From Haloferula rosea (GTDB lineage: Bacteria > Verrucomicrobiota > Verrucomicrobiia > Verrucomicrobiales > Akkermansiaceae), in the NCBI RefSeq assembly GCF_016595525.1, contig NZ_JAENII010000013.1:62001-126000 (forward strand): a stretch of 64,000 bases of DNA, read 5' to 3'. Positions 1,684-50,140 of this stretch are shown here, in pieces. Below the pieces are notes generated by a model. It was not told where the DNA came from and made no database searches. It saw only the letters and a program-made list of their open reading frames with translations. Position 1 is the first letter of the stretch. Every line of letters begins with the position of its first letter. The translations under genes were made by a program, and so were the position numbers.

Positions 1684-4335
1684 ATGCAATCAAGACTCCC
1701 ATGGATCCTGCTGGCCTGGGCGGGCGGGATGTTCCTGCCGGCAGCGGAAGAGCGTGCGGAGATCGTGACGCCATCGGTGCTGATCGAGGATCTGGGTGAT
1801 GAGAGTTATCCGGTCCGGGTGCGTGCCAGCTACGAGCTCTGGGAGTTGGGTGCGGATGTCCGAGCTCTGCTTGAGGAAGCCGCTGAGAGTGCGGATCCCG
1901 AGGTGTCCCTGCGTGCGGGTGAGTTGCTCAGGAAGATCCAGCTGGGGATTCTTCCGGACAGCCCGGCGGAAGTGGTCGCCCTGGTCGAACGCTACGATCA
2001 GGCATCGGCGACCGAGAGGCTCGAGATCATCCGGGAGCTCAAGGAGCTGCGTGCCTGGCGGCAGGTGCTCAAGATCCACGAACTGGAGACCGACCCCGAG
2101 ACGCTGCGTCGGATCGCCGGGGAGATGGCCGGGGTGTCGGTGATGGCTGCACGGGATCTCCTCGCGGAGGACGAACCGAATTTCAAGCAGGCGAAGGAGT
2201 TGCTTGAGTTGGGTCGGCCGGAAGCCGCCCAGCTGATGGCTCTGGCGGATTTCCACCGGGTGCGTGGCACCTTGGACGAGGAACTGGCGAAGGCGAGCAA
2301 GCTGCAGGGAGTGGCCGGACCGCTCTGGCGCTACGTGCTCCACTCGGCGGCGGGAAATCGGCAGGCGGCGGCGCGGGAGGCTGAGGCGGCGGGCGATCCT
2401 TTGGCGGCTGCGAGGCTGCGAATGCTGGATGGGGATCCATCCGGGTGGTTGGTGCATGCGCCGGTGCCGTCCGGTGAGATTCCCCCGACGGCCTTGGACG
2501 CCTACCGCAAGGCAGCCGCAGCATTGTGGCGGGGGAAGGAGGTGTCACCGCCCTTGGTCAGGGAGCTGGTGTCGTCGATCCGGACGAACTTCGATGACGA
2601 AAGCTGGCTTTCACTGGGAGTCCTTTATGCCTTGGGCGAGCGGGAAAAGGCTGACCCACTCCTCGTGAAACTTTCTCCCACCACGGCCTTCCTTACCTTC
2701 GACAGCGCCGAGCGGGTTGACGAGGCGGTCGAGATCTTTGGCATCGATCCACGCAATCCCGACTTCCGCGGGTGGATGGAGAAGCGTTTCAAGGTTTTGA
2801 TCGATGATCCCGATGAGATGGAAGACGAGCTTTCCGAGATCTCACAGCTTGCCGGCTTCATGGAGCGCCGTGGCATGCACCATGAACTGCACGAAGCGAT
2901 GGTCGGGTCCCTGGTCGAGCTGGGGAAGGCGGATCCGGAGTGGTTCATGGAAGTGATCGGCGAGTTGGGATCACGCTATTCGATGGCGGGGGCGATCCGT
3001 CCCGTGCTGGCAGCGGCGGCAGAGTTCGGGGCGAATGACGATGCGCGCTGGCAATTGATCCGTGACAGCCTTTTCGGGGATTCGAGGTATTCCGATGGTT
3101 TGTGGGAATCGGCTTCCGCGTTCGATGCGGATCTGACCCATGCCGCACGTGTCGAGCTGATGGCCAAGCTGCTTGGGCGCCTTCCTGATGATGGTGAGGC
3201 GCAGAAGTGGTGGGAATGGCAGCTCGAGCAGACGGGGAACGGGCCGAAGATGGAGAGGGCGGAACGCTACGGTCTGTTGCTCGCCGTGAGTGCGTTGAAT
3301 TCCGATGCCGACCTCTTCATGCTGCTGTGTGATGAACTCAAGGCGGCAGGGTTTACGCTCGATGATCTGGGGGGATACAGCGATGAGTTTCGCTTCGCGA
3401 GTTTCGAGGTCTTCTGTCTGGGGTCGGTGGGTCGATGGGATGAGGTCGCGGCGGTGTGGCGGAGGGACGTCGAGCGCAACCCGGCCAACGCCATGAAGCA
3501 GGCCTACCTGGCGGGTGCCCTGCGCCGTGCAGGCAAGCTTGAGGAGGCGAGAGTCCATGATGAGATGGCCGAGCGGCTTGCGCTGGGTGATCCGAGGACG
3601 ATGCGTTCGATCGGCCAGGCCTACGCGAGTTCCGTGGATTTCGAACGGGCGATGGAGTGGTGGATGCGCGCCGCCACCCAATCAGTGGAGGTCGACCAGG
3701 AATTTTACTACTCGGCTTTGCTTGTGGCGAACGAGTCGAAGCAGCAGGGGGATTGGAAACTGGCAGCCTCGCTGGGCGAGATGTATTTGCTCTACCAGGT
3801 GATGAAGGGTGAGGTGTCCGATCAGCCATCCGCGTTTTCGCGGGGTCGACTCGAGGTCGAGATGGCGCGTGCCTTCAGCCGTCTCAAGGATGATCGCGAG
3901 CAGTCAGTCAAGACCCTGACGCGTTGTCATCAGAGTGGATTGACCGATGGTTCCATGGCCGACTTCTTTTTCCCGGGGTTGCGAGAGGTCGGGCTCAACA
4001 AGTTGCACGATGAGTGGTTCGAAACGACTTGGGAGGCGTTCAGCCAAGTGCTGAAGCGCTACCCGAAGAGTCACAACACGATGAACTCGCTGGCATGGAC
4101 GGCGGCGCGTGCGAACCGGCGTCTGGCTGAGTCGAAGACCATGCTCGAGGAGGCGCTGGATTTGCTCCCACGCCAAGCGGCTTATCTGGACACCATGGGC
4201 GAGATCCACTTTGCCCAGGGAAACCGGGAGAAGGCACTCGAGTGGTCCCGCCGGGCGGTCATCCGCCAGCCTGGGGACGAAACCCTGCTGCGGCAGTTTG
4301 ACCGATTCGAGAGTGGTCCGCTGCCACTTGATTGA
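1684..4335 (+). CDS. large exported HEAT/TPR-repeat protein of unknown function
   Basis: The product is 883 aa from ATG 1684. That start was chosen because [17 protein letters not shown] followed by a small-residue region looks like a signal peptide; the frame is open upstream to 1573 but codes nothing recognisable. The first ~130 mature residues resemble HEAT-like helical repeats ([16 protein letters not shown]). The long middle is alpha-helical. The last ~300 residues contain TPR-like repeats, including an N-S-L-A-W-T segment and a terminal [14 protein letters not shown] repeat. No catalytic motif is visible. It probably acts as an envelope scaffold; the specific role is unknown. Confidence 0.75.
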
Positions 4336-47004: not shown

Positions 47005-47814
47005 TCAGACAGACACCTGTGCCTTGATGTGGGGGTGGGGGTCGTAGCCTTCAAGCGAGAAGTGCTCGAAGGTGAAGTCTTCGAGCTCGGTGACCGAGGG
47101 GTCGATCTTCATCGTTGGTAGCGGGCGAGGGTCTCTCGTCAGTTGCTCGCGTGCCTGATCGAGATGATTGGCATACAAGTGGAGGTCACCGAAGGTGTGG
47201 ATGAAGTCCCTCGCTTCGAAGCCACAGACCTGGGCGATCATCTGGGTCAGGAGTGCGTAGGAGGCGATGTTGAAGGGGACGCCAAGAAAGAGGTCCGCGG
47301 AGCGCTGGTAGAGCTGGCATGAAAGCCCGGGCCGATCGGAGTCGGGCTCGTGAACGAAGAACTGGAACAGGCAGTGGCAGGGGGGGAGTGCCATGCGGTC
47401 GATCTCACCGGGGTTCCACGCGACGACGAGGTGTCGGCGGGAGTGAGGGGACCCACGAAGTCCGTGAATCAACTCGGTGATCTGATCGATGTCCCTGCCA
47501 TCCGGGCTGGGGAATGATCGCCACTGGCGCCCGTAGACGGGGCCCAGGTCTCCGTCTTCGTCGGCCCACTCATCCCAGATGCGGACGCCGTGCTCCTTCA
47601 GGTAGGCGATATTGGTGTCGCCTTTCAGGAACCAGAGCAGCTCGTGGATGATCGATCGGAGGTGGAGTTTTTTGGTCGTCAGGCAGGGGAATCCCTCGCG
47701 GAGGTCGTAGCGCACCTGACGCCCGAACACTGCAAGGGTGCCCGTGCCGGTCCGGTCGGCTCGTTTCTCGCCGTTTTCCAGAACGTCGCGGAGCAGCTCG
47801 AGGTAGCCTGTCAT
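47005..47814 (-). CDS. thyA: thymidylate synthase
   Basis: ThyA methylates dUMP to dTMP using methylenetetrahydrofolate. The 269-aa protein has [24 protein letters not shown], the catalytic Cys in [11 protein letters not shown], and [20 protein letters not shown] 47814 ([15 protein letters not shown]) aligns with family N-termini. It is the first gene of the thyA-folA-DUF3127 operon. A TTGCTC-N17-ACACTC sequence five bases upstream of the ATG is a weak promoter candidate. Confidence 0.97.
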
Positions 47815-47886
47815 GCGCTGAGTGTGACTGAGAGGGGAAATCGAGCAAGAAAAGGGGAGTGCCCGACCGGGGAAATCGTGAAGAAA

Positions 47887-47914
47887 TTGCGACATTTCCG
47901 TGATCGCGTAGTTT
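47887..47914 (+). promoter_or_regulatory. putative promoter of small RNA copy A
   Basis: TTGCGA (47887-47892), a 16-bp spacer and TAGTTT (47909-47914) place a start near 47921. The same spacing and -10 hexamer occur before khpB. The copy B counterpart is degenerate. Confidence 0.45.
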
Positions 47915-47926
47915 CGGAAACTACGC
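47906..47926. promoter_or_regulatory. 21-bp perfect palindrome over the small RNA promoter
   Basis: GCGTAGTTTC and GAAACTACGC surround one G. The palindrome covers the -10 hexamer and the likely start site, so it may be an operator; it is absent from copy B. Confidence 0.5.
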
Positions 47927-48060
47927 AGGCTGCCAAAGTCCCCACGTCAGCGCGAGCAAGTCCCCCCTGCGAAACGCTGGCACCCGATTTCCCCCCGAAT
48001 CATCCCCCCGAAAGCAAGTCCCCGGAGGCCGGTGTCCCCCACCAACCTCCGGGGATTTTC
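47921..48060 (+). ncRNA. candidate C-rich structured small RNA, copy A
   Basis: From the predicted start to the T tract this is ~140 nt. Stem 1 is CAGCG (47948-47952) with CGCTG (47975-47979), enclosing a C6 run. Two more C6 runs (47991-47996, 48004-48009) lie in a presumably unpaired linker. A terminator hairpin follows: outer arms CCCCGGAGG (48020-48028) and CCTCCGGGG (48046-48054), inner GGTG/CACC, then ATTTTC. The exposed C runs could pair with Shine-Dalgarno sequences. The strand is chosen from the T tract and promoter; no transcript data exist. Confidence 0.5.
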
Positions 48061-48160
48061 GCGTTCGAGGAGGACGAAACCGGTCATGCCTGTGAAGAAA
48101 TCGGGCCATTTCACGTGATCACGGAGTGGTGGCCGATGCTGCCTGTGGCATGATTCATCC

Positions 48161-48280
48161 ATCAGCGCGAGCCATCCCCCCCAAGCGAAGCGCTGAGACC
48201 CCAATTCCCCCCAAACCATCCCCCCGAAAGCAAGTCCCCGGAGACCGGCGTCCCCCGCCAATCTCCGGGGATTTTTCTTT
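48161..48280 (+). ncRNA. candidate C-rich structured small RNA, copy B
   Basis: This is a second copy ~214 bp downstream with the same order of parts. Stem CAGCG (48163-48167)/CGCTG (48191-48195) encloses a C7 run. Further C6 runs are at 48207-48212 and 48220-48225, followed by the terminator hairpin CCCCGGAGA (48236-48244)/TCTCCGGGG (48262-48270) and ATTTTTC. Relative to copy A two stem pairs change together (G-C to A-T outer, T-A to C-G inner), so pairing is kept. Homology extends upstream to about 48093, but the promoter hexamers are not preserved. Confidence 0.5.
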
Positions 48281-48298
48281 CCTGAGTCTGCAGGCGGG

Positions 48299-50140
48299 TC
48301 ACTCCACGGTGACCGACTTCGCGAGATTGCGCGGCTGATCGATTTCGCAGCCGCGGATGCGGGCGATGTGGTAGGCGAGGAGCTGGAGGGCGACGGTGGC
48401 GGGAATGGTCGAGACCAGTGGATCACAGGCGGGGACCCGGATGACATCATCCATGTAGGCGGCGGCTTCCTCGTCGCCTTCGGTGATGACTCCCAGGATA
48501 CGCGCCCCACGCGCCCGGCATTCCTCGACGTTACCGAGGGTCTTGTCCTTGCCCGGAATGTCGGTCGCAATCGCGATGACCGGCGTGCCCTCCTCAAGGA
48601 GGGCGATCGGCCCGTGTTTCAGTTCGGCGGCGTGGTAGCCTTCAGCATGAATGTACGAGATTTCCTTGAGTTTGAGCGCGCCTTCGAGGGCAACGGGATA
48701 CATGCATCCGCGACCGATGAAGAAAGCATGCTCGTTGTCGGCGTAGTGTCTGGCCAGTTCGGCGATGGCTTCATTCTGCGCGATGGTGGCACGTACGAAC
48801 TCGGGGATGGAATCGATCTGTTTCGCGAGGTGCATGCCTTGCTCGCGTGAGTAGCGGCGGCCTCGTGCGAGCTTCAGCGCGATCATCAACAGCACCGCGA
48901 CCTGACAGGTGAATGCCTTGGTCGAAGCGACCGAAATTTCCGGTCCTGCGTGAAGATAGACCCCGCGACCGGTTTCGCGTGCGATGGTCGAGCCGACGAC
49001 ATTGCACAGTCCCATGACAAAGGCCCCCTTCTGGTTGGCCTCGCGGACAGCGGCCAGTGTGTCGGCGGTCTCGCCGGATTGGGAAATGGCGACGACGAGG
49101 TCCGACCTGCCGATGAGCGGATTGCGATAGCGGAACTCGGCGGCCTGATGGACTTCCGCGTGCAGGTCGGCGAGGTCTTCGAAGGCATACTCGCCCACGA
49201 GACCGGCGTGAAGGGACGTGCCGCAGCCGAGAAGAACCACGCGGTTGATCTCCGCGAGGTCCCGGCTCGAGGTGCCCATGCCGGAGAGGACGGACGACCC
49301 GAGGTTGAAATCGAGTCGTCCACGGATCGCATTGGCGAGCGACTCGGGCTGCTCGTGGATCTCCTTGAGCATGAAATGCTCGTAGCCGCCCTTTTCCGCA
49401 GCATCGGCATCGAAGCCGAGCTCCGCGACTTCGCGGGTGACGGGCACGCTGTTGAAATCGCGGATTTCGACCCCGTCGGCGGTGACGATGGCGAGGTCGT
49501 TGTCTTCCAGATAGATGACCTGACGGGTGTGCGAAATGATCGCGGCGGCATCGGATGCAATGATGGTTTCACCATTGCCCACACCGATGACGATCGGGCT
49601 GCCTCGCCGGGCCGTGATGATCTGGTCCGGTTTGTCGGCGGCGATCACGGCGATCCCGAAGGTGCCTTCCACCTGATGAAGGGCGTCGCAAACCGCTTGC
49701 ACGAGATCACCCTTGTATCCTTGGCCGATCAGGTGGGCGAGGACCTCGGTATCGGTTTCTGAAAGGAACGTATGGCCGTCGGCTTCCAGTCGCTGACGGA
49801 GGGATCGGTAGTTCTCGATGATGCCATTGTGGACCAGTGCGATGCCCGAGTTGAGATCGTGATGGGGGTGCGCGTTGACTTCGGTCGGTGGTCCGTGGGT
49901 GGCCCAGCGAGTGTGGGCGATGCCGACATGCGCCTTCTCCAGATCGTCCCCGGTCCACGTCGTGCCGACGCGTTCGTCGAGGGCTGCGACCTTGCCGGCG
50001 GCCTTGCAGGTCTGGATGGAGCCATCAGTCACGATGGACAATCCCGCGGAGTCATAACCGCGGTATTCGAGCCGCTTGAGTCCGCTGACGAGTATGGAAG
50101 GAGCCGATGACTGGCCGATGTATCCGACGATGCCGCACAT
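48299..50140 (-). CDS. glmS: glutamine-fructose-6-phosphate aminotransferase (isomerising)
   Basis: GlmS makes glucosamine-6-phosphate from fructose-6-phosphate and glutamine, the entry to UDP-GlcNAc. The 613-aa protein has an N-terminal Ntn glutaminase (Cys2 in CGIVGYIG, EYRGYDSAGL, HTRWATHG) and two SIS domains (ISQSGETADTLAA; EISYIHAEGYHAAELKHGP), ending in the AKSVTVE tail. It is the last gene of a glmM / acyltransferase / glmS cluster. No glmS-ribozyme-like element is evident in the 44-bp gap upstream. Confidence 0.97.
   Translation of the reverse strand: MCGIVGYIGQSSAPSILVSGLKRLEYRGYDSAGLSIVTDGSIQTCKAAGKVAALDERVGTTWTGDDLEKAHVGIAHTRWATHGPPTEVNAHPHHDLNSGIALVHNGIIENYRSLRQRLEADGHTFLSETDTEVLAHLIGQGYKGDLVQAVCDALHQVEGTFGIAVIAADKPDQIITARRGSPIVIGVGNGETIIASDAAAIISHTRQVIYLEDNDLAIVTADGVEIRDFNSVPVTREVAELGFDADAAEKGGYEHFMLKEIHEQPESLANAIRGRLDFNLGSSVLSGMGTSSRDLAEINRVVLLGCGTSLHAGLVGEYAFEDLADLHAEVHQAAEFRYRNPLIGRSDLVVAISQSGETADTLAAVREANQKGAFVMGLCNVVGSTIARETGRGVYLHAGPEISVASTKAFTCQVAVLLMIALKLARGRRYSREQGMHLAKQIDSIPEFVRATIAQNEAIAELARHYADNEHAFFIGRGCMYPVALEGALKLKEISYIHAEGYHAAELKHGPIALLEEGTPVIAIATDIPGKDKTLGNVEECRARGARILGVITEGDEEAAAYMDDVIRVPACDPLVSTIPATVALQLLAYHIARIRGCEIDQPRNLAKSVTVE

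Follow-up and report, generated by a model that had tools for sequence, protein, structure and literature searches.

The locus and its two tandem elements

The window, that is, the whole 64,000-nt stretch of Haloferula rosea DNA analysed here, comes from a draft genome of 4.68 Mb in 69 contigs (order Verrucomicrobiales) and includes thyA (47005-47814, minus strand, with a conserved start at 47814) and glmS (48299-50140, minus strand). The 484-nt gap between these two minus-strand genes is filled by elements that read on the plus strand. There are two of them, each about 117 nt long and composed of a 5' hairpin, a linker with two C6 runs and a terminator hairpin. The predicted transcript of copy 1, with an inferred 5' end, spans 47946-48062 and comprises a 5' hairpin (47946-47981) with C6 in its loop (47962-47967), a linker whose two C6 runs (47991-47996 and 48004-48009) together span 47991-48009, and a terminator hairpin (48016-48058) with C5 at the tip (48036-48040). 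Copy 2, predicted at 48161-48278, likewise with an inferred 5' end, has the corresponding 5' hairpin at 48162-48196 with C7 in the loop (48176-48182), the linker C6 runs at 48207-48212 and 48220-48225 (together 48207-48225) and the terminator hairpin at 48232-48274 with C5 at the tip (48252-48256), the latter being terminator-like on the minus strand too.

A repeat search aligned 47962-48059 with 48178-48275 (98 nt, 87% identity, spacing 216 nt), and repeats further upstream are spaced by 214-215 nt, so that the duplicated unit takes in the promoter region. The original prediction, made from the bare sequence, had placed two copies of one element about 214 bp apart in this gap, and the spacing of 214-216 nt agrees with it. 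Its description of the parts also holds: the CAGCG/CGCTG stem is present in both copies, enclosing C6 in copy 1 and C7 in copy 2, and each copy adds a second and third C6 run and a G+C-rich hairpin that leads into T's on the plus strand. Both compensatory changes, GGAGG/CCTCC to GGAGA/TCTCC and GGTG/CACC to GGCG/CGCC, can be read in the sequence. The changes are real, but both sit in the terminator hairpin, a structure that any transcript end would keep; stronger evidence of a functional RNA is provided by the relatives.

Runs of at least five cytosines occur eight times in the 484-nt gap, against a mean of 1.2 and a maximum of 6 in 2000 single-base shuffles, and the gap has no G5 run. A coding function was rejected for either copy: ATG, GTG and TTG are all absent from copy 2, and the single GTG of copy 1 lies inside the terminator, ten codons from the end of the element. 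Nor is a dispersed repeat or mobile element favoured, the genome having only two copies of this type (hereafter family A), in one place. No Rfam family matched the elements at the gathering score; with E values up to 10, the region 47800-48350 gave seven matches, none of them meaningful and none to the 6C small RNA (Rfam RF01066). The rows for MIR4374 and Scr3202 lay far below the cut-offs of these families. Likewise, neither 6C nor any other family gave a meaningful match in 12 further loci at the gathering score or in seven loci at E values up to 1.

Structure, covariation and strand

Folding z-scores were -4.7 and -7.1 for stretches including the terminator and -5.6 and -6.6 for the trimmed stretches, against only -1.7 and 0.1 for two stretches that included the promoter without the terminator. 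Across the family-A and A-like copies described below, the full-length z-scores ranged from -4.9 to -8.4, and those of the pre-terminator part from -0.5 (genome G265) and -1.5 (G016) down to -6.1. The C runs are predicted to be exposed, with a mean unpaired probability of 0.90 over 271 positions compared with 0.33 at 290 other C positions, a comparison of predicted folds made without a shuffled control.

Covariation was scored in the terminator. In an alignment of 11 related copies, which was not fitted to the structure and was read with a structure drawn from copy 1, 94.3% of the cells are paired, and 7 of the 16 pairs show double changes with pairing kept. Double-change cells number 20 in these copies compared with 5.9 in shuffles, and the covariation score of 0.352, compared with 0.122 in shuffles, was reached by none of 500 shuffles; sliding the partner columns by one to three positions gave at most 0.122. 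From the family-A alignment, RNAalifold recovered no shared 5' helix, since the sequence of the 5' stem turns over; the evidence for the 5' hairpin comes from folds of single sequences.

In a terminator scan, the complete hairpin was recognized on the minus strand for both copies. The plus strand yielded only a five-pair stem, in copy 2; copy 1, with four T's in its plus-strand tract, gave no call there. Given the minus-strand call and its position 24 nt past the glmS stop, the hairpin of copy 2 could also end glmS transcripts. A sigma-70 consensus scan found no site in the elements; copy 1 has no clear -10 box, and CATGAT at 48149-48154 (plus strand) was picked by eye as a possible -10 box of copy 2.

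Relatives of the elements

A DNA search of 57 genomes matched five, the window's own included. Within the genus of the window's organism, thyA was located in 17 of 18 genomes; glmS was detected beside it, within 1.5 kb, in five (G000, which is the window's own genome, G002, G014, G016 and G017), and the gap carries the element in all five. By eye, no element was seen in the 750 nt upstream of thyA in the other 12. A covariance model built from seven copies gave strong matches (E<1e-12) at eight places in 6 of the 18 genus genomes, seven of the eight being the copies that built the model; the palindromic stem makes the model match these hairpins on their other strand too. Genome G001 holds two family-A copies on different contigs, C70 and C97, and the C70 copy has the same layout with no thyA or glmS match in the surrounding 6 kb. 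In G002, G014, G016 and G017, the 5' stem has a different sequence, which again forms a hairpin around C runs.

A second genus of the same family, g13, contains A-like RNAs in three genomes (G221, G256 and G265). They combine 5' hairpins with a C6 linker and a terminator that carries a C run close to the tip. C7-8 occupies the 5' loop in G256 and G265, and the 5' hairpin of G221 has no C run. Overall, family-A RNAs carry two to eight C runs at variable spacing and with little conserved flank. Eight weak matches of model R1 beyond both genera were also inspected: five had no C run and one had a single run, and two, L260 (G236, another genus; three C runs) and L264 (G053, another family; four), may be further C-run RNAs.

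Among the weaker matches of the first model we recognized a distinct RNA, family B, which begins GTAAGGGATAGTTGCACAGCCCCCC... and continues into a terminator with a C5-6 loop; it occurs alone or in tandem. Of 288 genomes in the order, a family-B model (16 copies) had matches in 28, namely 12 of the window's genus, 15 of g13 and, weakly (E 0.0066), one in another family, although the sole match in G014 is the family-A element and some of the g13 rows are A-like RNAs. The 5' GUAAGG and the C run are largely kept across both genera, and the terminator varies; of 12 g13 copies checked, 11 contain a single C run over the full match. Family B is present once in the window's own genome, on contig C68.

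Several other candidates were seen alongside. Just upstream of that family-B RNA lies a C5-loop hairpin, GGCGCCGGAACTCTCCCCCTCCGGCGCC, with its own copy of the promoter element (L327/L171, G000:C68 about 224290-224422, minus strand). At G003:C13 (L132) and G006:C71 (L119), C-run RNAs show a third layout, in which the terminator is different and the palindromes upstream are similar. A conserved C-rich RNA candidate, CGTCGGTCGCCTGCGAACCGAGCAGATTCTCCTCCCTCGCCC, stands behind the promoter element in three genomes (L331, L332 and L356, about 1545-1650, motif strand). Finally, locus L168 (about 3730-3960; G000:C1:15730-15960) contains tandem structured units, made up of CCAATTCCCCCC and a hairpin with GGTAGCACAGCCCCC and GGCACC, before a terminator. 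This locus and family B have GCACAGCCCCC in common, and no Rfam family matches it.

A shared element upstream of the C-run RNAs

The regions upstream of these RNAs have ACGYGATCRCGTAATGG in common. Of 43 such regions (11 of A or A-like RNAs and 32 of family B), 36 have their best-matching site 31-35 nt ahead of the RNA start, and the best match scores at least 13/17 in 33 of the 43, compared with 0.26% of single-base shuffles; the consensus was derived from the same RNAs that were scored, the regions are mutually related and the RNA starts were placed by us. The seven regions without the element at the expected distance are A_G016, A_G001b, B_L114, B_L115, B_L117, B_L118 and B_L130. In the window, copy 1 has the element at 47898-47914 (plus strand, 13/17) and copy 2 at 48113-48129 (plus strand, 15/17). 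The centre of the palindrome falls near -42 to -47 of the inferred RNA starts; class-II activators bind at about -41.5. The palindrome of copy 1 also scores 14/17 on the minus strand (47893-47909), facing thyA, whose start codon is about 80 nt downstream; judging from this arrangement, thyA and the small RNA may be divergently co-activated.

When 464 kb of the window's own genome were scanned with GAT fixed at positions 5-7, four sites reached 14/17: those of copy 2 and of a prepilin-like gene, the copy-1 palindrome read on the strand that faces thyA, and one seemingly intragenic site. A 16-mer version of the element, an exact match to neither window copy, occurs 29 times in 14 of the 18 genus genomes. 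Within 130 nt after it, C5 is found in 20 of 29 cases and C6 in 13, against a background of 9.5% and 2.0%, respectively, in 1189 windows from the same loci. Inspected by eye, the 29 sites precede 12 family-B RNAs, 3 copies of another C-rich RNA (L331, L332 and L356), 6 members of a small-protein family and 8 others. With family B set aside, the excess shrinks: 17 sites are left, of which 8 are followed by C5 and 2 by C6. Because six of these eight C5 sites belong to the one small-protein family, few independent mRNA families back the proposal that mRNA leaders take part in the system. When one mismatch was allowed in the window's own genome, C5 followed 8 of 29 sites: copy 2, the family-B RNA, the adjoining C5-loop hairpin, two genes with C-run leaders and three others.

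Looser patterns were less informative. Relaxed searches for the element returned mostly apparent coding DNA, and another form of the pattern, with two mismatches, was followed by C5 in 5 of 30 loci. A first pattern joining promoter and C5 gave no matches, its gap being too short for these RNAs. Co-occurrence of GATCRCGK with C6 in the window's own genome was set aside (16 found, overlapping rows counted, vs 9.1 expected): the reversed-pattern control was judged unfair because it contains CTAG, which to our knowledge is rare in bacterial genomes. The same weakness touches the reversed-pattern controls of other element counts, that of the 16-mer included. As the GATCRCGK counts are weak, we rely on the longer element with a background taken from the same loci.

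Messenger RNAs behind the element

Two genes of the window's own genome have leaders of the type CCCCCC-N-CCCCCC-GAACATGAA, and one of them is prepilin-like. The latter (L321, minus strand, G000:C44 about 272150-272312), whose product begins MKTASPRRRMDRPGLTLLEITVVL..., has two C runs in its leader behind the element; its N-methylation motif is under the Pfam cut-off, and similar DNA occurs in G002, G009, G012 and G013. The second is the gene start at L305 (minus strand, G000:C3 below 3938), which has the leader TATCCCCCCAACACCCCCCGAACATGAA and follows a one-mismatch copy of the element. The small-protein family (L335, L342, L343, L344, L350 and L351) is weakly conserved and has C-run leaders behind the promoter element; it measures 109-148 aa in the five members aligned with called frames, L344 being assigned by its leader, and the three tried had no Pfam match over the cut-off. 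Among the six products tried against Pfam, three had sub-threshold matches and the rest none. C runs appear both in small RNAs and in mRNAs behind the shared element; these mRNAs carry C runs, not G runs, and their families amount to only a handful.

Gene starts and Shine-Dalgarno use

Gene starts were sampled from 400 kb of contig C44 together with the window (464 kb in all), which gave 348 called genes, 114 of them with high-confidence ATG starts; the calls follow simple rules and do not come from a trained gene finder. At positions -18 to -4, Shine-Dalgarno-like words precede 6.1% of the 114 starts vs 10.5% in a control stretch, GGGG precedes 0.9% vs 3.5%, and GGGGG precedes none. CCCC, at 4.4% vs 11.4%, is not enriched either, and C-run leaders are therefore not a general feature of this genome, in which C is anyway the commonest leader base. 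The base directly before ATG is C in 59% of the 114 starts. In the first 60 nt of genes, G6 runs number 3 in 306 genes, compared with about 2.9 estimated from the within-gene rate, and just after the 5'-most start codons (0-40 bin) there are 24 C runs vs 5 G runs. The leader of glmS, whose start is fixed by the Met-Cys N-terminus, is C-rich and has no Shine-Dalgarno sequence. Akkermansia, a member of the same order as the window's organism, is placed among the 'SD-scarce' organisms in a published survey (PMC10783764). The suggestion in the original prediction that the C runs bind G-rich ribosome-binding sites is not supported by this sample, which has no Shine-Dalgarno enrichment and no GGGGG at -18 to -4 of its 114 starts, or by the 'SD-scarce' label of Akkermansia in that survey. 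Pairing to G tracts elsewhere than Shine-Dalgarno sites is possible.

What the C runs might do

From the sequence comparisons, it is very probable that the two elements are transcribed small-RNA genes of some kind, and they are probably tandem copies of a single such gene. The predicted plus-strand small RNA with a selected structure is backed by homologues, by covariation, by the exposure of the C runs and by the near-constant distance of the promoter element. At the level of sequence, the comparisons show a conserved anatomy, turnover of the 5' stem with the hairpin kept, covariation in the terminator and a promoter element common to most of the C-run RNAs examined.

As to function, we lean, tentatively, towards the small RNAs acting as decoys that offer repeated C runs to a factor which also reads C-run leaders. 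Under such a scheme, a dimeric activator would bind the palindrome, roughly as at class-II promoters, and would turn on a set of C-run small RNAs as well as a few mRNAs that have the same C runs in their leaders, near the start codon. Each C run would offer a binding site to the same trans-acting factor, probably a protein that binds RNA, and the family-A RNAs, with two to eight sites, would draw this putative factor off the C-run leaders in the manner of CsrB/RsmZ. Repetition, variable spacing, little conserved flank and the presence of similar runs in a few mRNA leaders fit multivalent binding of one factor. Two features of the relatives speak against decoys: the g13 family-B RNAs, of which 11 in 12 have a single C run, offer few sites for such a role, and the A-like RNA of G221 lacks the run in its 5' hairpin. 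CsrA itself (PF02599) was found in none of the 18 genus genomes, with 3 of 14 named genomes positive as a control. The complete picture, a Csr-like cytosine-run system with small-RNA families in at least two Verrucomicrobiota genera, one class-II-type activator, a titrated poly(C)-reading factor and C-run-leader mRNAs including the prepilin-like gene, strikes us as rather doubtful.

A nearly equal rival to decoys, and one that we find similarly conceivable, is antisense action of the 6C/B11 type, whereby the C runs would pair with G5-G6 tracts in untranslated or early coding regions, not Shine-Dalgarno sites, and block or destabilize the mRNAs. The mycobacterial B11 RNA makes a similar display of C6-7 in loops (PMC10470900), and the C runs here are accessible in the predicted folds. 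Set against this are the gene-start counts, with neither Shine-Dalgarno enrichment nor GGGGG upstream of the 114 starts and with early G6 runs at about the expected number, as well as the mRNAs behind the shared element, which have C runs instead of G runs.

It is improbable, in our judgement, that the elements have no small-RNA function and consist of duplicated terminators or intergenic DNA, with the conserved hairpins ending transcripts, those of glmS included, and with the C runs acting as DNA (possibly as a G-quadruplex) or being neutral repeats. Two observations are in keeping with such an origin: the terminator scan prefers the minus strand for each hairpin, that of copy 2 lying directly beyond the glmS stop, and the compensatory changes between the two copies are confined to the terminator hairpin. 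Nevertheless, the C70 copy of G001 keeps the layout with neither thyA nor glmS found within 6 kb, the 5' hairpin is kept despite its changed sequence, C-run linkers lie outside the terminator as well and the promoter element stays at a near-constant distance. A G-quadruplex on the opposite strand was considered and found weak: a single run, as in 11 of the 12 g13 copies of family B, cannot supply a four-run quadruplex, and this family, poor in C runs, keeps its promoter and its 5' sequence.

Rho prefers C-rich, G-poor single-stranded RNA, and the C-rich unstructured linkers between hairpins would suit a small RNA that traps Rho as a soluble rut site, but unbroken C5-C7 runs in short loops are not known to be needed for Rho, and we consider this highly improbable.

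Comparison with known systems

The decoy reading invites comparison with CsrB and RsmZ, RNAs that draw CsrA from GGA leaders. The possible likeness lies in a short motif repeated in the loops and linkers of small RNAs and found near the start codons of some mRNAs; here, however, the motif is C5-C7 instead of GGA, and CsrA was not found in the 18 genus genomes. The C-rich small RNAs of Firmicutes (FsrA, RoxS/RsaE, IsrR and LhrC) use single-stranded C-rich contact sites, sometimes several per RNA or genome, and target Shine-Dalgarno regions, whereas in the present case Shine-Dalgarno-like words are not enriched and no Rfam family was matched.

A similar display is that of the mycobacterial 6C/B11 RNA, a small RNA that presents unbroken stretches of six and seven cytosines in two of its loops; in B11, compensatory mutation showed that either loop pairs with a six-G tract in the eccB4 5' UTR (PMC10470900). 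The layout differs, the elements described here having C6-7 in a 5' hairpin, C5 in the terminator loop and two C6 linkers. They also belong to another phylum and to several families united by one promoter element, in a host without Shine-Dalgarno enrichment. No report of such RNAs in Verrucomicrobiota was among the matches listed in our searches of the open-access literature (Verrucomicrobia, Luteolibacter, Akkermansia; small or C-rich RNA).

Small RNAs with C loops are often explained by the blocking of Shine-Dalgarno sites. The recurrence of C-run RNAs in a lineage whose sampled genome lacks Shine-Dalgarno enrichment makes what the C run reads a directly testable matter, and the shared promoter element offers a handle on a regulon that takes in other C-run small RNAs and the prepilin-like gene. 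Collectively, C-rich small RNAs are known as a kind, and those described here stand apart in their separate lineage, their different layout, their several families and their common promoter.
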